Shown: piece by piece, positions 34,019-44,426 of the stretch
How the letters are laid out: each line of letters opens with the position of its first letter
Position numbering within the stretch: position 1 is the first letter of the stretch
Assembly: GCA_039804025.1 (NCBI GenBank)
Contig: JBDRZP010000012.1
Location: 1 to 64,000, forward strand
Length of the DNA stretch: 64,000 nt
DNA from: a candidate division WOR-3 bacterium
GTDB taxonomy: Bacteria; Hydrothermota; Hydrothermia; Hydrothermales; JAJRUZ01
Direction of reading: 5' to 3'
Translations under genes and position numbers: made by a program
Notes under the pieces: model-generated
Told to the model about the DNA's origin: nothing
Database searches by the model: none
What the model saw: only the letters and a program-made list of their open reading frames with translations

Positions 34019-34639
34019 ATGCACTATGAGGTGTGTTTAAGATGCGGTTCAGAAATTGATAGAAAGGGATTTTTTTGTCAAAATTGTGGTTTTTTCATAA
34101 GTAAAGATTTTACAGAAAAGGAACTTCTGGTTTTTAGAATGGATATAATAGGATTTACTCATCTAACAGAAAAAATAGAACTTTTTGACTTAAAAATAAA
34201 TCTTTCCCTTTTATTTTCCAATTTAAGAAATATAGCAGAAAAAAATGGAGGATATGTTAACCAATATATAGGTGACGAGATTGAAATTTTATGGGGACTT
34301 GTAAAAAAATTTGAAAAAGCTGAATTTTTTAGCTTTTTAAAAGATATAAAGGATTTTTTTAACTCAAAACTTTTGAAAGTAAATTTCAGAATACGTATGT
34401 TTGGTGGATATGGTAACACAATAGTTTTTCCAGTTAAAACAGGAGAAAAGGCATATTTAATACTTATTTCTGATTTTATTGATAAAATTAATGATTTAAA
34501 AACAATTGTAAAAGAAGGAGAAATCGGTTTAATAGGAGAACCAGAGAAAATTTTTGAAGGAGATATGCTTGAAAAAAGAAGCTTTGATAATTTTACTTTT
34601 TATATTTTAAGGGAGGTAGTCTTACATGGAGCAAATTGA
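34019..34639 (+). CDS. Zinc-ribbon protein with class III cyclase metal-binding half
   Basis: 206 aa. An N-terminal zinc ribbon (C6, C9, C20, C23) is followed by a class III nucleotidyl cyclase-like domain. It keeps both catalytic metal aspartates, D42 in FRMDIIGFTHLTE and D86 in YIGDEIEILWG. The usual C-terminal helix with the transition-state Asn and Arg (GDxVNxAARL) is missing. It therefore resembles the C1 half of a two-part cyclase. The missing half is found in the zinc-ribbon/STAND protein at 37252. The HEAT protein gene overlaps its end by 14 nt. Confidence 0.78.
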   Translation: MHYEVCLRCGSEIDRKGFFCQNCGFFISKDFTEKELLVFRMDIIGFTHLTEKIELFDLKINLSLLFSNLRNIAEKNGGYVNQYIGDEIEILWGLVKKFEKAEFFSFLKDIKDFFNSKLLKVNFRIRMFGGYGNTIVFPVKTGEKAYLILISDFIDKINDLKTIVKEGEIGLIGEPEKIFEGDMLEKRSFDNFTFYILREVVLHGAN

Positions 34640-37265
34640 AAATTTATTAGTAGAACTTTTAAAACAAATGGGGGTAGGTTTAAATTATTCAAAAATGTAT
34701 CCACCCGGACACCCTGCTTTTACGAGATTAGCAGAACAGTTTTTAGAGGTTATAAAAAAATTTCCAACCAAATACAGAACAATATCAATTTATTTCTTTG
34801 AAAATATAATTCTATTTGAGGACACAAGAATGGATATAAGTAAAATTCCTGCAATCCAATCTCTCTCAAAACAACTGTCAAAATATAAAATTGAAAGTAT
34901 CTCAATTGATAGAGATGTTACCCAAGAAGATGTAAAAGGATTTTTTGAAGTTTTTACTCTTCCGGCAAAAAAATTTTTAGAAACACAGGATCCAACAGAA
35001 TTTCTGCTTCAAAAAAATATTGAAAAAATAAGATTCAATGAAGTTAAATTTGCTTTAACTTCATCCACCACTGAGAAGGAAATAAAGTTTGATCTTGATT
35101 CGGTTTTGAGAGAAATAGAAAATACTGATGACCCTCTTCATTTTATTAACTCAATACCAGGTGAAGATATTCTTACTAAGACTAAAACTCTTGTTAAAAA
35201 TGCAAAAAAAATAAATCCTCTACAATTATCAAAGGTTTTTTCTTCAATAATGATGGAAGGGGGTGAAAATCTCCTTTCTGAATTTTTGAAAGATGAAGAA
35301 ATCAAAAATAAAATCAGAGAGATAATGGCTTCTATGGATGAAAGTGATTTTTTACTTATTCTTTCTGAAATACCAAGGGAAAAAAGAAGTGATATTTTAT
35401 CATTTGTCCCTGAAGATAAAAGGAAAGAAATTTTGAATAAAATTCCGAGTTTTTTAATTCCCCGTGAGGAAGAAGGTGTAAGTTATGTAAAAAAAGAGAA
35501 AACTTATGAAGGAACTATTTCACCTCATATTTATGAAGAAGTTCGGGCTGGTTCTGAAATTGAAGAAAAAATTGATAAAATTTTTAATAAAATTGAGGAA
35601 TTAAAGGATGAAGAAAAAGAAAAGGAAATAAGAGAAATCTTTTTAAAAATGGTTGGAATTGATCTTAAAGAGGATTTTGAGAGTTCTAAAATTTTAAGTG
35701 TTGTTTCTGCTTTAAAAATAGTTGCCTATTATTTACTTGAAAAATATGGAGAAGAAGGTTTTTCGGGCCTCTCACTTATTGTTTCGCAGATTCTTAAAAT
35801 TTTATCTCCTTCTTTAAAAAGAAGGTTCCTTCAAGAATCAGAAAAACACAGGGAAATTGCCCAATCAATAAGAAAAGTTCTTGAGGAAATGAAGGATGAA
35901 GAACTTATTTCTCTTTTATCTGGTATAAAAGAAGGAGATACGGATGTTCCAGACACAATTAAAGATATTCTTCAAAAAAGGAAAGTCTTCACAAAGGGTG
36001 ATATTTCTTATCAGGATAAAGAACTCGAAATGCTCGAAAGAGTGACGAGGGAAAAAAGGCTTGTTATAACAGGTGAAAAGAAATTGAAATTTATGGAAAA
36101 GGAACTTGAAGAGGGAATTGGTGCCTCTGAAATGGATCTTGTCCTCGAACCACTCTTAGAAAAACTGAACAAAGGAGACGAAAATGAAAGAAGTTCAGCT
36201 GTTAGTGCTATTGCTGCTTTGGCAGTTTCCTTTATAAAGTCAGATAAATTTGGACCACTTGAAAAATTAATAAATCTTATAAAATCAAAAATACAAGAAG
36301 AGGAACATCCAGCTGTTATCTTTTCATATATTGATGGTCTTGAAAAAATTGTAGAAATTGCAAAGATAAAGGGGAAAGATTTTATTGTTGAAGATATACA
36401 GAAAACTTTTAGAGATTTACTTGATTCAGAATCAAAGAAAAAAATGGCAATAAGAGCACTTGGAAAAGTAGGTACTCAATTTGCCTTAAGGATGCTTCTA
36501 ACAGCTCTATGGGATGAAGATACAGAAATAGAAGTGAAAGAGGCACTTCTTTCTTCAGGTAAGGAAGGATTTAATGCGCTTAAAGAGATTTTTCCAGAAA
36601 TTGAGAATATAAATATCAGAAGAAGAATAGCTAAAATTCTTGCAGCTTTTCCACCAGATTATAGGAAGGAATTTTATGAAGCTCTTGAAGAAGAAAACTG
36701 GAAAACACAAAGAGATATAGTGTTTATACTCGGGGAAAGTAAAGATGAAGAAGGTTTACCTCTTTTAGTAAAATTTTTAAAAACCGGTCAGGATATAGTA
36801 AGATTAGAGGTGCTCAGAGCTTTATCAAAAATTAATAATCCAAAAGTTGAGGATGATATTATTGAGGTTTACATTGAATATCCTGGAAAGGAAGTCAAAA
36901 TAGAATGTATAAGAACACTTTTAAAAATAGGGACTGAAAAAAGTGTGGATGTAATCTCTAAGTTTATTAAAGAAGCAATTGAAAAAGAAGATTTTAACGA
37001 ACTTGTAATTCCTGCTTTTAATTTTGTAATGAAACATTCACCTGAAAAGGTATATCCTTTTATAGAAAAGATTTTATTTGAAAAAACATTTTTAAAGAAA
37101 CCTAAATATCCTTCTGGAATAAGAACAGAATTAGTAAGAGTTTTATCAAAATATAAAACAGAAAAAATCAAAAGTTATTTAGAGGAACTTATTAAGGACC
37201 CTGATTCTTCTGTAAAACTGGCAGCAACTATGGGATTAAGGAGATTTGAAAGTGATAGAAACTGA
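34626..37265 (+). CDS. Large HEAT-repeat protein
   Basis: 879 aa, soluble, highly charged and almost all helical. No catalytic motif was found. Residues about 230-275 (LLILSEIPREKRSDILSFVP) resemble the helical N-terminal superhelix of MgtE-like scaffolds. HEAT-type pairs fill the C-terminal third (RMLLTALWDEDTEIEVKEAL, GLPLLVKFLKTGQDIVRLEV, DPDSSVKLAATMGLRRFESD). It is translationally coupled to both neighbours, the two zinc-ribbon cyclase-like proteins, so it may be a scaffold holding them together. Function is inferred only from context. Confidence 0.8.
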   Translation: MEQIENLLVELLKQMGVGLNYSKMYPPGHPAFTRLAEQFLEVIKKFPTKYRTISIYFFENIILFEDTRMDISKIPAIQSLSKQLSKYKIESISIDRDVTQEDVKGFFEVFTLPAKKFLETQDPTEFLLQKNIEKIRFNEVKFALTSSTTEKEIKFDLDSVLREIENTDDPLHFINSIPGEDILTKTKTLVKNAKKINPLQLSKVFSSIMMEGGENLLSEFLKDEEIKNKIREIMASMDESDFLLILSEIPREKRSDILSFVPEDKRKEILNKIPSFLIPREEEGVSYVKKEKTYEGTISPHIYEEVRAGSEIEEKIDKIFNKIEELKDEEKEKEIREIFLKMVGIDLKEDFESSKILSVVSALKIVAYYLLEKYGEEGFSGLSLIVSQILKILSPSLKRRFLQESEKHREIAQSIRKVLEEMKDEELISLLSGIKEGDTDVPDTIKDILQKRKVFTKGDISYQDKELEMLERVTREKRLVITGEKKLKFMEKELEEGIGASEMDLVLEPLLEKLNKGDENERSSAVSAIAALAVSFIKSDKFGPLEKLINLIKSKIQEEEHPAVIFSYIDGLEKIVEIAKIKGKDFIVEDIQKTFRDLLDSESKKKMAIRALGKVGTQFALRMLLTALWDEDTEIEVKEALLSSGKEGFNALKEIFPEIENINIRRRIAKILAAFPPDYRKEFYEALEEENWKTQRDIVFILGESKDEEGLPLLVKFLKTGQDIVRLEVLRALSKINNPKVEDDIIEVYIEYPGKEVKIECIRTLLKIGTEKSVDVISKFIKEAIEKEDFNELVIPAFNFVMKHSPEKVYPFIEKILFEKTFLKKPKYPSGIRTELVRVLSKYKTEKIKSYLEELIKDPDSSVKLAATMGLRRFESDRN

Positions 37266-40215
37266 AAATAGAATTCAATGTAAGAGATGTAAATCTTATG
37301 TTAGAGATATCTATAACTTTTGCACATATTGTGGTTTAAAAGTAAAAGATGTAAAAGTTATTGTTCCTGATGAAGCAAAGATTGCAATTTCTCTTAGAAA
37401 AAAATATGTTATTTCTTTCTTTCTGAGTCTAAAATGGAAAACCAAAATAAATGCTCTTTTAATTTCTAAGTTCCACTATTTTTTAAAAAAAATTGATGAA
37501 CTATGTGTTAATTATGATGGTTTTTTTGAGAAATTCAATCATTTTGAAGGCGGACTTGTTATATTTGGTTATAATGAATTTGAAAGAGACCTTATTTTTA
37601 AAGTTCTTGATTTTTCTTTTAAAGTTGAAGAGTTAATTAAAAAAAATTTTTCCGATTTATGTGAGTATGGTATAGGAATATGTTCTGGATGGGCATTCTT
37701 TGGAGAAATTGAATCAGGAAATAGCATGTCTATAACAGCTCTTGGTGATTGTGTGAATACCTCTGCAAGACTTTCTACTCTATTTAATAATAGAAAATAT
37801 GTTTGTGTTGATATATACGAAACTGCTATGAATTTTTATGAATTTGAACATATGGGAAAAATCAAGTTAAAAGGAAAATTTGATAGAATTGATGTTTATG
37901 CTTTAATTTCCGAAAGAAAAGAAATTATTTATGAGGAATTCCGAGTTCCCTATATAGAAAGAAGTGATGTTAAGGAAAGATTAGAAGCAATTATAGGTGA
38001 ATGGGAAAAGGGAGAAACTAAAAGTGTAATAATAACAGGTGAAGCAGGAATTGGAAAAACATTTCTTGCAGAAAATTATCTAAAAAAATTAAAAGATAAA
38101 GGTTTTATTATAAAACTTAAAGGAAGTGAGATATATTCTAACGAACCGCTCTACCCTTTCAGGTTATTTATTGAGAATTCCTTAAATAAAGAGGAATTTA
38201 AATTTATAAAAAGATATCTTGAAACTTTTTTAAAAAGCTTTTCTTATTTTTTTGAGAAAATAGAAGAAAAACCCAATAGAGAAAAACTTAAATATCTTTT
38301 ATTTGATCTTTTAAGAGTTATATGCAATAAAAAAGGTAACCTTATTATATTTTTTGATGATATAGATAGAACTGACCCTTTTACCATTGAATTTATAAAC
38401 TTTTTAAAATCAAAAATTGAAAAAACCCTGATTATTTTAACAGGGAGAGTCTTACCAACATCTTTAGACCCTAAAAATGTTTATAGAATCAATTTGAGAG
38501 CTTTTGATTATGATGAAACAAAAGAATTAATATTAAAATACTTTCCTGATGTAAGTCCAGAGATAATTCTTGAAATTCACCCCAAAACCGGAGGTATCCC
38601 TCTATTTATAACTCAGTATTTGAAAAGTTTAAAAATAAGAAAAAAAGATATTAAAGAAAAACCTGAACTTCCACTTTCTTTAATAAGTTTTGTTCTCTCA
38701 CCGATTCAGGAACTTACTGAAGGAGAGAGAGATCTATTGGAAATATTAAGTGCTGTTACTGAACTTGACCTTGATTCTCCTCTTTCAAAATACTTCTCTC
38801 ACAAAATAGAAAAAAATTTAGACAAACTTATTTTAAATGATATTTTAAGAATTGAAAATAATAGAATTGTATTTGTTAATCCACTTGTTAGAGAGGTGAT
38901 TTATGAGTCTCTTCCGGATTTAATTAAAGAAAGGATTCATAAAGAAATTGTTGATGCTGTTTTAGATAGTCCCTGGGCTGAAGAGAACCCTTACTTTGTT
39001 TTTATAAACTCTTTAAAGGCGAGAGAATATGATAAAGCATGGAAATACGGTATAAAGAGTTTAAAAAAACTTTTAAGAGAAGGAACGGGTTTTATACCGA
39101 ATTTTATTTTTGAAAAAATAGATGATGAGGTTTTAAAAAACTATAAAGTAAAACCCCTTGATATGGGTGATTACTTTTTCCTGAAAGGAGTATATTCTTT
39201 TCTTGCTAAAGATTTTGAAAAATCTATTCAACATTTTCACAAGGCACTACTTCTTACAGAGGAAAAAGATGAAAAATGGAATGAAATTAATCTTTATCTC
39301 TCAAAGTCTTATATTGAAAGGGGAAGTCTTGAATCTGCAAAAAAATTTTTGAGGGATATAAAAGTTAATGATGAAATTACCTCAGCTAAAGTTAATATAA
39401 CATGGTCTTTTCTTTACCAGAAAGAAGGTCTATTCTTCGATTCGCTTATTTTTATGAGAAGAGCAAGTAATGAACTTAAAAAGAAGGGAGTTTTTCTTTC
39501 TGAATTTAAATTAAAACTTTCTGACCTTTTATTCTGGACAGGGAATCTTGAAGATTCTTTAAACACTATTCTTGATGCTGAGAAATCTTCCTATATGGAA
39601 ATGAACTTTGAAAATTTAGTTGATGTTCTTAAAATAAAAGCTTTCCTGGGGATATTTTTGAAAAATGAGAATTTATTCAATTCTGCTTTTAAAACAGGAC
39701 TATCTTTTTCTCAAAAATTTGAAAACCTTCCATATCTTTTTTATTTTAAAAATATTAAATCTCTTCTTGAAGGAGATGTAGCAACTACTTTAGATTTAAA
39801 TCTTTCATTCCTAAGGGATCCTTATATATTCTTTTCGATTTTTCTTAATACAAATGAAGAGTTTTTTAAAAAAATAGATATAGAAGAAATAGAAGAAAAT
39901 CCAAATTTCCCCTTTTACCAGAAGCTTTACATTAAAGCAATTAAGAAAATTAAGGAAAGCACAAAATTAAGTGAGGATTTGAAATTTCTATTTGAAGAAA
40001 TTTTTAAATACCCTATACCAATATTACATATTATCATATTAAGAGAACTTTTAAAGATATGTAAAAAAATTGAAAGATACGATGCGGTGAGGTTTCTTCT
40101 TAAAAATTATATATATATATTTGAAGACTTGAAAAATAGAATCAAAAGTGATATTTATCGGACTGGATTTGAAGAAAACTCCTTCTTTAACCCTGAAAAA
40201 ATTTTAAAAGAGTAA
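37252..40215 (+). CDS. Zinc-ribbon / degenerate cyclase / STAND ATPase / TPR protein
   Basis: About 987 aa. The order is a zinc ribbon (CKRCKSY...CTYCG), a class III cyclase-like domain (about 45-220), an AAA/STAND NTPase with Walker A TGEAGIGKTFL (K269) and FFDDIDRTDPF, then TPR-like helices to the C-terminus. The cyclase domain lacks the first metal Asp and has Glu (E99) at the second, but keeps the transition-state N169 and R173 in GDCVNTSARL, so it is C2-like. The frame opens at TTG 37246; GTG 37252, 8 nt after AAGGAG, is the better start. It ends 6 nt before the convergent OmpA gene. Confidence 0.83.
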   Translation: MIETENRIQCKRCKSYVRDIYNFCTYCGLKVKDVKVIVPDEAKIAISLRKKYVISFFLSLKWKTKINALLISKFHYFLKKIDELCVNYDGFFEKFNHFEGGLVIFGYNEFERDLIFKVLDFSFKVEELIKKNFSDLCEYGIGICSGWAFFGEIESGNSMSITALGDCVNTSARLSTLFNNRKYVCVDIYETAMNFYEFEHMGKIKLKGKFDRIDVYALISERKEIIYEEFRVPYIERSDVKERLEAIIGEWEKGETKSVIITGEAGIGKTFLAENYLKKLKDKGFIIKLKGSEIYSNEPLYPFRLFIENSLNKEEFKFIKRYLETFLKSFSYFFEKIEEKPNREKLKYLLFDLLRVICNKKGNLIIFFDDIDRTDPFTIEFINFLKSKIEKTLIILTGRVLPTSLDPKNVYRINLRAFDYDETKELILKYFPDVSPEIILEIHPKTGGIPLFITQYLKSLKIRKKDIKEKPELPLSLISFVLSPIQELTEGERDLLEILSAVTELDLDSPLSKYFSHKIEKNLDKLILNDILRIENNRIVFVNPLVREVIYESLPDLIKERIHKEIVDAVLDSPWAEENPYFVFINSLKAREYDKAWKYGIKSLKKLLREGTGFIPNFIFEKIDDEVLKNYKVKPLDMGDYFFLKGVYSFLAKDFEKSIQHFHKALLLTEEKDEKWNEINLYLSKSYIERGSLESAKKFLRDIKVNDEITSAKVNITWSFLYQKEGLFFDSLIFMRRASNELKKKGVFLSEFKLKLSDLLFWTGNLEDSLNTILDAEKSSYMEMNFENLVDVLKIKAFLGIFLKNENLFNSAFKTGLSFSQKFENLPYLFYFKNIKSLLEGDVATTLDLNLSFLRDPYIFFSIFLNTNEEFFKKIDIEEIEENPNFPFYQKLYIKAIKKIKESTKLSEDLKFLFEEIFKYPIPILHIIILRELLKICKKIERYDAVRFLLKNYIYIFEDLKNRIKSDIYRTGFEENSFFNPEKILKE

Positions 40216-42566: not shown

Positions 42567-43583
42567 TTATCTCTCCAATGTATATACTGTAATTCCAAGA
42601 TAACCCTTTAATTTTAAAAAGTCAAGAGGCTTTATATAGGCATTTCCCTGACTGTCCACAATAGCAAATGCTTTGTAAAAAATAAGTGAATCCCTGGCAA
42701 GATCTATAACTTCCTTTGGGATATCAATTTCAAATGAAAACTTTGTGCTATCAATAGATACACCATCTATATTTTTAGGGGAAGCCCTGAAAAGCAAATT
42801 ATTAACAGGCATAAATGTGTCGCTGTTTTCTGTAAAAACTTGAATGGATAAATAAAATTTTACCGGTAAAGAATGAGTAACATCTGCATGAAGGAAAATT
42901 CTTTGAATTCTGTTTTCTTTTGCTAAATCTCTTACATCTTTATTGGTATTTTTAATTGTATCAGTAAATGTTACAACATTATCACCAAGAATTCTTGCAC
43001 CAAAAAGAGCCTCTTTGAAAGTTTCTACTGTATCAAAATTTGCGGTTCCTTTTAAAATCTGTGGTATGATAACAAAACGATGAGGACCGGCTGGAAAATC
43101 ATTAAAAGGCAATCTGTGAATTATATTGAAATTACCTGATATTTCTTGTTTTACACTATCTTTTCTAAAAAGTTCAAAAGTGTCTGAGATATCATTCCAG
43201 CTATAGGCTAAAATTTTAGTTTTGAGAGTGCAGGGTGAATTTAAAACATTACCTTTATATTTTGTTCCTGCATATATAAGAAATAAAAGCGAACCAAATT
43301 CACTATTTGTTGTATCTATAATCTTGGGCATAAACCTTCTTAAAGTGTCTCTTGCCAATACTTCAAAACCTGAATAATTGTTAAGATTTGGGTGAATAAT
43401 TTTCTGTATATTAAAAACTGAATCAGCAATAACTCTATATTTATCACTTTTAGAAACCTCATCAAAAACAGTTGTTTTTTTCAATTTTCCAGGTATTCTG
43501 AGAGTTAGAAACCAACCCACCTCATGGGGTGATTTTATACAAGCATAAAAAAATAAAAAAATAATTAAAAATAATTTTTTCAT
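42567..43583 (-). CDS. Putative lipoprotein, unknown function
   Basis: 338 aa. The signal peptide ends in a lipobox (LFFYAC at about residue 15). The rest is predicted beta-rich, with strand-like segments and repeated statements of the form YKAFAIVDSQGNAYIKPLDF; I do not recognise a family. It is 2 nt upstream of the OmpA-type gene, so the pair probably forms an outer-membrane complex. It follows a strong terminator, so it has its own promoter in 43584-43630, where I see no good consensus. Confidence 0.72.
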   Translation of the reverse strand: MKKLFLIIFLFFYACIKSPHEVGWFLTLRIPGKLKKTTVFDEVSKSDKYRVIADSVFNIQKIIHPNLNNYSGFEVLARDTLRRFMPKIIDTTNSEFGSLLFLIYAGTKYKGNVLNSPCTLKTKILAYSWNDISDTFELFRKDSVKQEISGNFNIIHRLPFNDFPAGPHRFVIIPQILKGTANFDTVETFKEALFGARILGDNVVTFTDTIKNTNKDVRDLAKENRIQRIFLHADVTHSLPVKFYLSIQVFTENSDTFMPVNNLLFRASPKNIDGVSIDSTKFSFEIDIPKEVIDLARDSLIFYKAFAIVDSQGNAYIKPLDFLKLKGYLGITVYTLER

Positions 43584-43630
43584 AATTTAATGTTAAGAAA
43601 AACAAAAATAATTTTTCACTTATTTAAAAT

Positions 43631-43657
43631 AAAAAAACCCCCTCATAAGGAGGGGGT
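43631..43657 (-). terminator. Intrinsic terminator after the FN3-like lipoprotein gene
   Basis: ACCCCCTC (43637-43644) pairs with GAGGGGGT (43650-43657) around a 5-nt loop. On the minus strand it is followed by seven T (43637-43631 side). It separates the coiled-coil/FN3-like lipoprotein unit from the next lipoprotein-OmpA unit. Confidence 0.9.
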
Positions 43658-43685
43658 CTACCTCAAAAATAAAATTAAAACTAAT

Positions 43686-44426
43686 TTACTGTGTTTTTAA
43701 CCAGCGAAGACCTGGATACTTCTGGAAAGCAATTGTAACATTATACTGGGTACCGGATATTGAATTTATTTTAATCTTAGCAAAGTAGTCATTGGCTCCT
43801 ATATTGCCATCAATTGGAGAAAATTCAAACCAAATGTAGTAGGCTGAACCTGCTACTGCAGGTTGGCGTGTAAGATAATTTCCTTCTGTTGGGGCAAGAT
43901 TTGCAGCATCAAAAGTTCCTGAAATTTCAGCAAAAGCAGCATCTACATTGGAATTATTGTGATAATTACTACTTAAGCTATCGGCAATGAAAAACATCCA
44001 GGCTTCTCCTTTCTGAGAAGCATTAACAGCACTTGCTGTGCCGTTTGTAAATACAACATAACTTGGATGGTTGGTATCAGGATCTGTAGCATCGTAAACA
44101 ACAAGATTTGAAGTTATAACAGGAGTAAAATCAAATCTCTTAGGTGTTGACTCTTTATCACCCGCATAAGCAACTATTTCTATTATTTTAGCAGGATTTG
44201 TCCATTCAAAATATGTATTTGTTCCCTGATACTGTTGTGTTCCATCTACATAGACTCTATATCCATCAGCACCATCAACTGGATCCCATTCAAATCTTAA
44301 TCCTTCACCCTGATTTAGAATCTGTGTTATTCTTGCATTTGGAGTAGCAATTTCCTCATCACCTCCACAGGCAGCAAAATATATTATGGCAATGAATAAC
44401 CCTGAAAGAATTAAAATCTTCTTCAT
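43686..44426 (-). CDS. FN3-like lipoprotein, unknown function
   Basis: 246 aa. Lipobox in IIYFAACGGDEE (Cys about 20), with Gly-Gly-Asp after it. Residues about 30-100 look like a fibronectin III-type domain (LRFEWDPVDGADGYRVYVDG, TYFEWTNPAKIIEIVAYAGD). The remainder is beta-rich with no family recognised. It has a Shine-Dalgarno (AGGAGG) and lies 10 nt after the coiled-coil lipoprotein gene, so the two are co-expressed at the cell surface or in the periplasm. The G+C of this gene is slightly above its neighbours. Confidence 0.75.
   Translation of the reverse strand: MKKILILSGLFIAIIYFAACGGDEEIATPNARITQILNQGEGLRFEWDPVDGADGYRVYVDGTQQYQGTNTYFEWTNPAKIIEIVAYAGDKESTPKRFDFTPVITSNLVVYDATDPDTNHPSYVVFTNGTASAVNASQKGEAWMFFIADSLSSNYHNNSNVDAAFAEISGTFDAANLAPTEGNYLTRQPAVAGSAYYIWFEFSPIDGNIGANDYFAKIKINSISGTQYNVTIAFQKYPGLRWLKTQ

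Follow-up and report, generated by a model that had tools for sequence, protein, structure and literature searches.

Organization of the three-gene locus

The window analysed here, a 64,000-nucleotide stretch of DNA from a candidate division WOR-3 bacterium (contig C12; genome of 2.1 Mb in 47 contigs, 96% complete), carries a compact cluster of three genes, referred to below as A, B and C. The features of the cluster are as follows:

34019..34639, + strand: gene A, zinc ribbon and C1-type class III cyclase domain, 206 aa; D42 and D86 present, the Asn/Arg/Lys half-site lost
34626..37265, + strand: gene B, N-terminal region with a YPPGHP motif and HEAT repeats, 879 aa
37252..40215, + strand: gene C, zinc ribbon, C2-type class III cyclase domain, STAND/AAA_16 ATPase and TPR region
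34142..34144, + strand: codon of metal Asp D42, gene A (computed from 34019)
34274..34276, + strand: codon of metal Asp D86, gene A (computed from 34019)
37756..37758, + strand: codon of N169, gene C (computed from 37252)
37768..37770, + strand: codon of R173, gene C (computed from 37252)

Gene A overlaps gene B, and gene B overlaps gene C, by 14 nt each, in agreement with a preliminary description of this DNA, which had placed an overlapping HEAT gene between two cyclase-like genes. The ribosome-binding sites at both joints are good. A Shine-Dalgarno-like sequence, AAGGGAGG, precedes the ATG of gene B at 34626. For gene C, the GTG at 37252 is preferred as the start since AAGGAG, likewise Shine-Dalgarno-like, is located 8 nt upstream of it, a TTG at 37246 being possible. 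The dN/dS values obtained from two close genomes (0.08 for A, 0.16 for B and 0.14 for C) indicate purifying selection on each of the three genes. In the window the trio lies beside the housekeeping genes tsaD, trxB and ccmF. Further along, at window positions 42567-44426, two proteins of 338 and 246 aa with signal-peptide-like starts and no Pfam match are encoded beside an OmpA-like gene.

Complementary half-sites in proteins A and C

Both A and C begin, as had been described, with a zinc ribbon (C6, C9, C20 and C23 in A; C10, C13, C24 and C27 in C). The Pfam cyclase match of A was barely detectable (E 0.11, over only ~60 residues); in C, the second half of the cyclase domain was clear, with PDB matches over residues 139-222. 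Single-chain AlphaFold2 models of A (pLDDT 87.5) and C (pLDDT 88.3) both have the class III cyclase fold, and Foldseek searches with these models retrieved CyaB, CyaC, sGC and AC. The C2 domain of protein C is followed by a STAND P-loop domain (AAA_16 match at 236-387, E 4.7e-11) with the Walker A sequence GEAGIGKT, in which G263, G266, G268 and K269 are invariant, and by a C-terminal TPR region, weak in the window protein (TPR_2, E 0.0037) and matched by TPR_12 with E 1.5e-10 in the homologue L055. The earlier proposal that this cyclase half is joined to a STAND ATPase and TPRs was therefore correct.

The 33 A and 31 C domains were aligned together with 38 canonical domains and scored at the active-site positions defined for AC and sGC, where the roles of these residues have been described (PMC3591389). 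The first metal Asp is present in 38/38 canonical domains. The claim that A retains both metal Asp residues, D42 and D86 in the window protein, holds across families, each being found in 33/33 sequences. The Asn and Arg pair, absent from the window protein, is found in 1/33 (Asn) and 0/33 (Arg) A domains, and Lys/Arg-8 (the Lys1065 position) in 1/33. Protein A had also been said to lack the Asn/Arg helix; the two residues are indeed gone, but the equivalent helix is still predicted (152-163), with its residues replaced. A conserved Arg at the gamma-phosphate position of A was considered and dropped, as it is not universal.

Protein C of the window has S59 at the first metal position and F98/E99 at the second, where one residue is inserted relative to canonical cyclases, and keeps T162, N169, R173 and K207. 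Among the 31 C domains, metal Asp-1 is found in only three; metal Asp-2 is found in 25, but with PD replacing GD and a one-residue insertion. The loss of the first Asp and the retention of N169 and R173 thus stand as originally noted, while the Glu reported at the second metal position characterizes this genome and not most of its relatives. The Asn and the base-position Thr are each present in 31/31, Lys/Arg-8 in 30/31 and the Arg in 30/31 with one Lys (the Arg is replaced by Lys in the distant family L069). As can be seen from these counts, the metal Asp pair and the Asn/Arg pair come together only when A and C are combined, and the two proteins have lost complementary halves of the site, by residue counts as well as by the profile choices given below. 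In a quick all-column tree with long branches, A was monophyletic (SH-aLRT 98) and C formed one clade except for an orphan long branch.

Forty other WOR-3 cyclase domains were fetched. Thirty-three of them keep both Asp residues, Asn and Arg; five have Lys in place of Arg, one is without the first Asp, and one, from a tandem protein of genome G066, was poorly placed and not properly scorable. The A-type pattern (both Asp residues without Asn and Arg) was found in none of the 40, which argues that the division of the site is not a matter of chance.

C2-type domains also occur elsewhere. In the window's own genome, an orphan cyclase-STAND-TPR protein (C1:165581; L077:6871-9978) has lost the metal site and kept GDKVNIAAR, with no A-type gene adjoining. 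An open reading frame cut at a contig end in genome G001 (L041:1-648) encodes a zinc ribbon and a C2-type cyclase with Glu/Pro at the metal positions and GDTVNTAQR kept. Since neither has a visible A-type neighbour, loss of the metal site alone is no proof of pairing.

Two further variants were noted among WOR-3 cyclases. L203, L204, L208, L209 and L211 belong to a clade in which the transition-state Arg is changed to Lys. L193 and L194 (contig C56 of G136) are neighbouring cyclase-STAND genes, one with Asn at the first metal position, and are possibly a second kind of unlike pair.

Conservation and linkage of the trio across WOR-3

Profiles of A, B and C were used to survey 147 WOR-3 genomes. 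Strong A matches, all to short open reading frames, scored 182-333 bits and were cleanly separated from ordinary cyclases (at most 157 bits). They were found in 32 of the 147 genomes; B adjoins A in 31 of these 32 and C adjoins A in 27, and the strong matches of the B and C profiles fall at the same places. The three genes therefore co-occur in relatives, as two gene orders: A-B-C in the family of the window and C-A-B in other families. Cases without adjacency correspond to contig or assembly breaks, with parts of the trio at different contig ends (G134, G003), a contig that ends shortly past A (G143) or a cut C open reading frame just upstream of A (G080). An additional, divergent trio is present in G113 (L069). 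G138, a 67% complete genome, has C with no A detected and, elsewhere, only part of B. In G106 (L058, L179), a further case without full adjacency, only the C-terminal part of C is next to A, the N-terminal part being encoded 14 kb away on the opposite strand; C appears to have been split by an inversion, either a misassembly or a real rearrangement.

In G001, which belongs to the same genus as the window, tsaD, trxB, ccmF and B are followed by the OmpA-like gene, with no space left for either A or C, and neither gene gave a strong match elsewhere in this 95% complete assembly. A and C have been lost together in this genome, and B has been retained at the same place.

Outside WOR-3, a search for A in 18 genomes from two other phyla found none, and in a scan of genome contigs with A the strong loci were from WOR-3 only, among the matches listed.

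Relation to C1 and C2 domains of eukaryotic cyclases

When compared with solved structures, the A profile preferred the C1 half and the C profile the C2 half of AC5, AC8, AC9 and sAC, a preference that rests partly on the same retained or lost active-site residues. The A profile matched VC1 with 56 bits, IIC2 being absent among the 60 matches listed, and sGC alpha (43 bits) better than beta (30 bits). The C profile matched IIC2 (37.4 bits) slightly better than VC1 (35.6 bits), and sGC beta (49 bits) better than alpha (28 bits).

The preliminary description had equated the arrangement with the C1/C2 division of mammalian adenylyl cyclases. The complementarity itself is strongly supported, since it is kept in at least six families, the genes remain together in either of two orders, A and C are lost jointly in a congener, and the profile choices agree; the comparison, however, needs sharpening, because sAC is nearer in architecture. 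In the mammalian transmembrane enzymes (C1a/C2a), as in the trio, C1 holds the metal Asp residues and C2 the Asn, Arg and Lys together with base recognition; unlike the trio, they are single membrane chains without STAND or zinc ribbon, and their base residue is Asp rather than the Thr of C. sAC (ADCY10; PMC12802110) has unlike C1 and C2 domains, the latter followed by a predicted STAND P-loop domain, and the A and C profiles match its C1 (residues 42-194) and C2 (277-454), respectively. It differs in being one chain, whereas in the trio C1 is a separate small zinc-ribbon protein and a HEAT gene is part of the cluster. The nearest architecture is that of sAC (C1-C2-STAND), of which the trio, on the best reading, is a split analogue.

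In sGC (PMC3591389), two gene products likewise form one site and homodimers are inactive, with A resembling alpha and C resembling beta; sGC is, in contrast, a GTP enzyme with a haem sensor and has neither STAND nor a HEAT partner. The fungal rhodopsin-cyclases NeoR/RGC (PMC8815786) are also obligate class III heterodimers encoded by two genes, but their RGC1/RGC2 partners retain all catalytic residues. Bacterial class III cyclase-STAND proteins are laid out like C (zinc ribbon, cyclase, STAND, TPR) and, unlike C, retain the full set of residues, as is the case in homodimers (33 of the 40 fetched WOR-3 domains).

Tandem single-chain relatives

The same divided half-sites are found within the phylum on a single chain. 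Proteins of ~900-1540 aa with the order cyclase-cyclase-STAND are encoded at L106:219-2945 and, in WOR-3, where they are frequent, at L229-L248. Their first domain (d1) keeps the metal Asp pair in 20/21 cases; in the second (d2), the first Asp is absent in 21/21, while Arg is kept in 20/21 and Asn in 18/21. In all 21 proteins d1 scored higher with the profile of A and d2 with that of C. With the active-site columns masked, d1 still preferred A in 20/21 and d2 preferred C in 21/21.

In a tree built without active-site columns (a quick tree with long branches), d1 and d2 each formed one clade, apart from A and C. Since A did not join d1 and C did not join d2, the trio probably has an origin separate from that of the tandems. 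Fission of a tandem sAC-like protein was considered as the source of A and C and is disfavoured by this tree, though the masked profiles put d1 nearer to A. Judging from these sequences, the two half-sites seem to have been parted on more than one occasion in WOR-3, once in two genes.

Proposed function of the A/C pair

The best explanation, which we consider likely, is that A and C, as unlike subunits, make up a single class III nucleotidyl cyclase with a composite site, probably ATP-using and gated by STAND and TPRs. A would contribute the two-metal half-site (D42, D86), as does C1 of mammalian AC or sGC alpha, and C the base, ribose and transition-state half-site (K94, T162, N169, R173, K207), as does C2 or sGC beta. 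Homodimers of A or of C would be inactive, and of the two sites of an A:C dimer one would work and the other would be a dead pseudo-site. The base-position Thr of C points to ATP as the substrate, so that pairing of A with C and catalysis at the composite site would most likely yield cAMP. Gating most likely falls to the STAND ATPase and TPRs of C: the TPRs would sense nucleotide exchange at the STAND domain, and this exchange would determine the geometry or the oligomeric state. Possible receivers are six cNMP-binding-domain proteins encoded in the same genome. PF00233, a check for class III phosphodiesterase type, is absent from this genome, which is uninformative since bacteria use other PDE families.

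It is also conceivable, though unlikely, that the pair is a catalytically dead nucleotide-binding switch, in which binding of ATP and metal regulates the STAND ATPase or B with no cyclisation. STAND proteins are often regulated by their nucleotide state, and the phylum does contain degenerate cyclase domains, for example the orphan C2-type protein of the same genome; on the other hand, all classes of catalytic residues, including the turnover-specific Asn and Arg, are invariant or nearly so across families. We give considerably less weight to the idea that A and C are not partners and that each modulates one of the cell's canonical cyclases. Several canonical cyclase-STAND proteins are indeed encoded in the genome, but the strict neighbourhood in two orders, the joint loss in G001 and the exact complementarity speak against separate roles. 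A Pycsar-type anti-phage system, with the cyclase signalling to a neighbouring effector, appears more improbable still: despite weak PycC matches of the cyclase domains (E 0.004 for A and, at best, 2e-8 for the C protein of L055) and the NLR-like STAND part of C, neither B, which is HEAT only, nor C has a cyclic-nucleotide-responsive effector domain, PADLOC matches were weak, the window trio lies beside housekeeping genes, and the trio is kept together across families and, bar one loss, is not patchy in close relatives. That A and C are independent degenerate domains whose adjacency is historical, as degenerate class III domains elsewhere in these genomes might suggest, is hardly credible given the low dN/dS, the invariant half-sites, adjacency despite the change of order and the joint loss.

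One-site heterodimeric cyclases are well known in eukaryotes, and a C1/C2 division is not in itself what sets the trio apart; the unusual feature is its distribution over two genes accompanied by a HEAT gene. The class III cyclases of prokaryotes are described as homodimers in the typical case (PMC4886424). No bacterial two-gene C1/C2 cyclase was found in the limited set of papers searched, in line with the earlier remark that such a version appears undescribed. Extending the cyclase reading, we lean somewhat towards the view that A and C form an obligate two-gene prokaryotic heterodimer with complementary half-sites, evolved apart from eukaryotic sGC and AC and from the WOR-3 tandems, and that its switches are a STAND (NLR-like) sensor carried by one subunit and a HEAT partner. 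Such an enzyme, from a little-known phylum, would act only once A and C pair, linking STAND sensing to second-messenger output via assembly of a shared active site; the trio would be a soluble system that could be switched by pairing instead of by a hormone receptor. As WOR-3 has both a conserved bacterial pair and tandem versions, it becomes possible to test how C1/C2 asymmetry arose.

Protein B and its relatives

The HEAT repeats of B were matched with E 1e-24. B probably holds or positions the A-C pair or receives its signal, and may tether the pair or read it out. The case for B as a scaffold is weak because B has relatives far from cyclases. B-like HEAT proteins with an N-terminal YPxGHP motif are encoded without A or C at L170-L173, L175, L176 and L181, and some of the A/C-free proteins of this kind adjoin GMP synthase or GGDEF genes.
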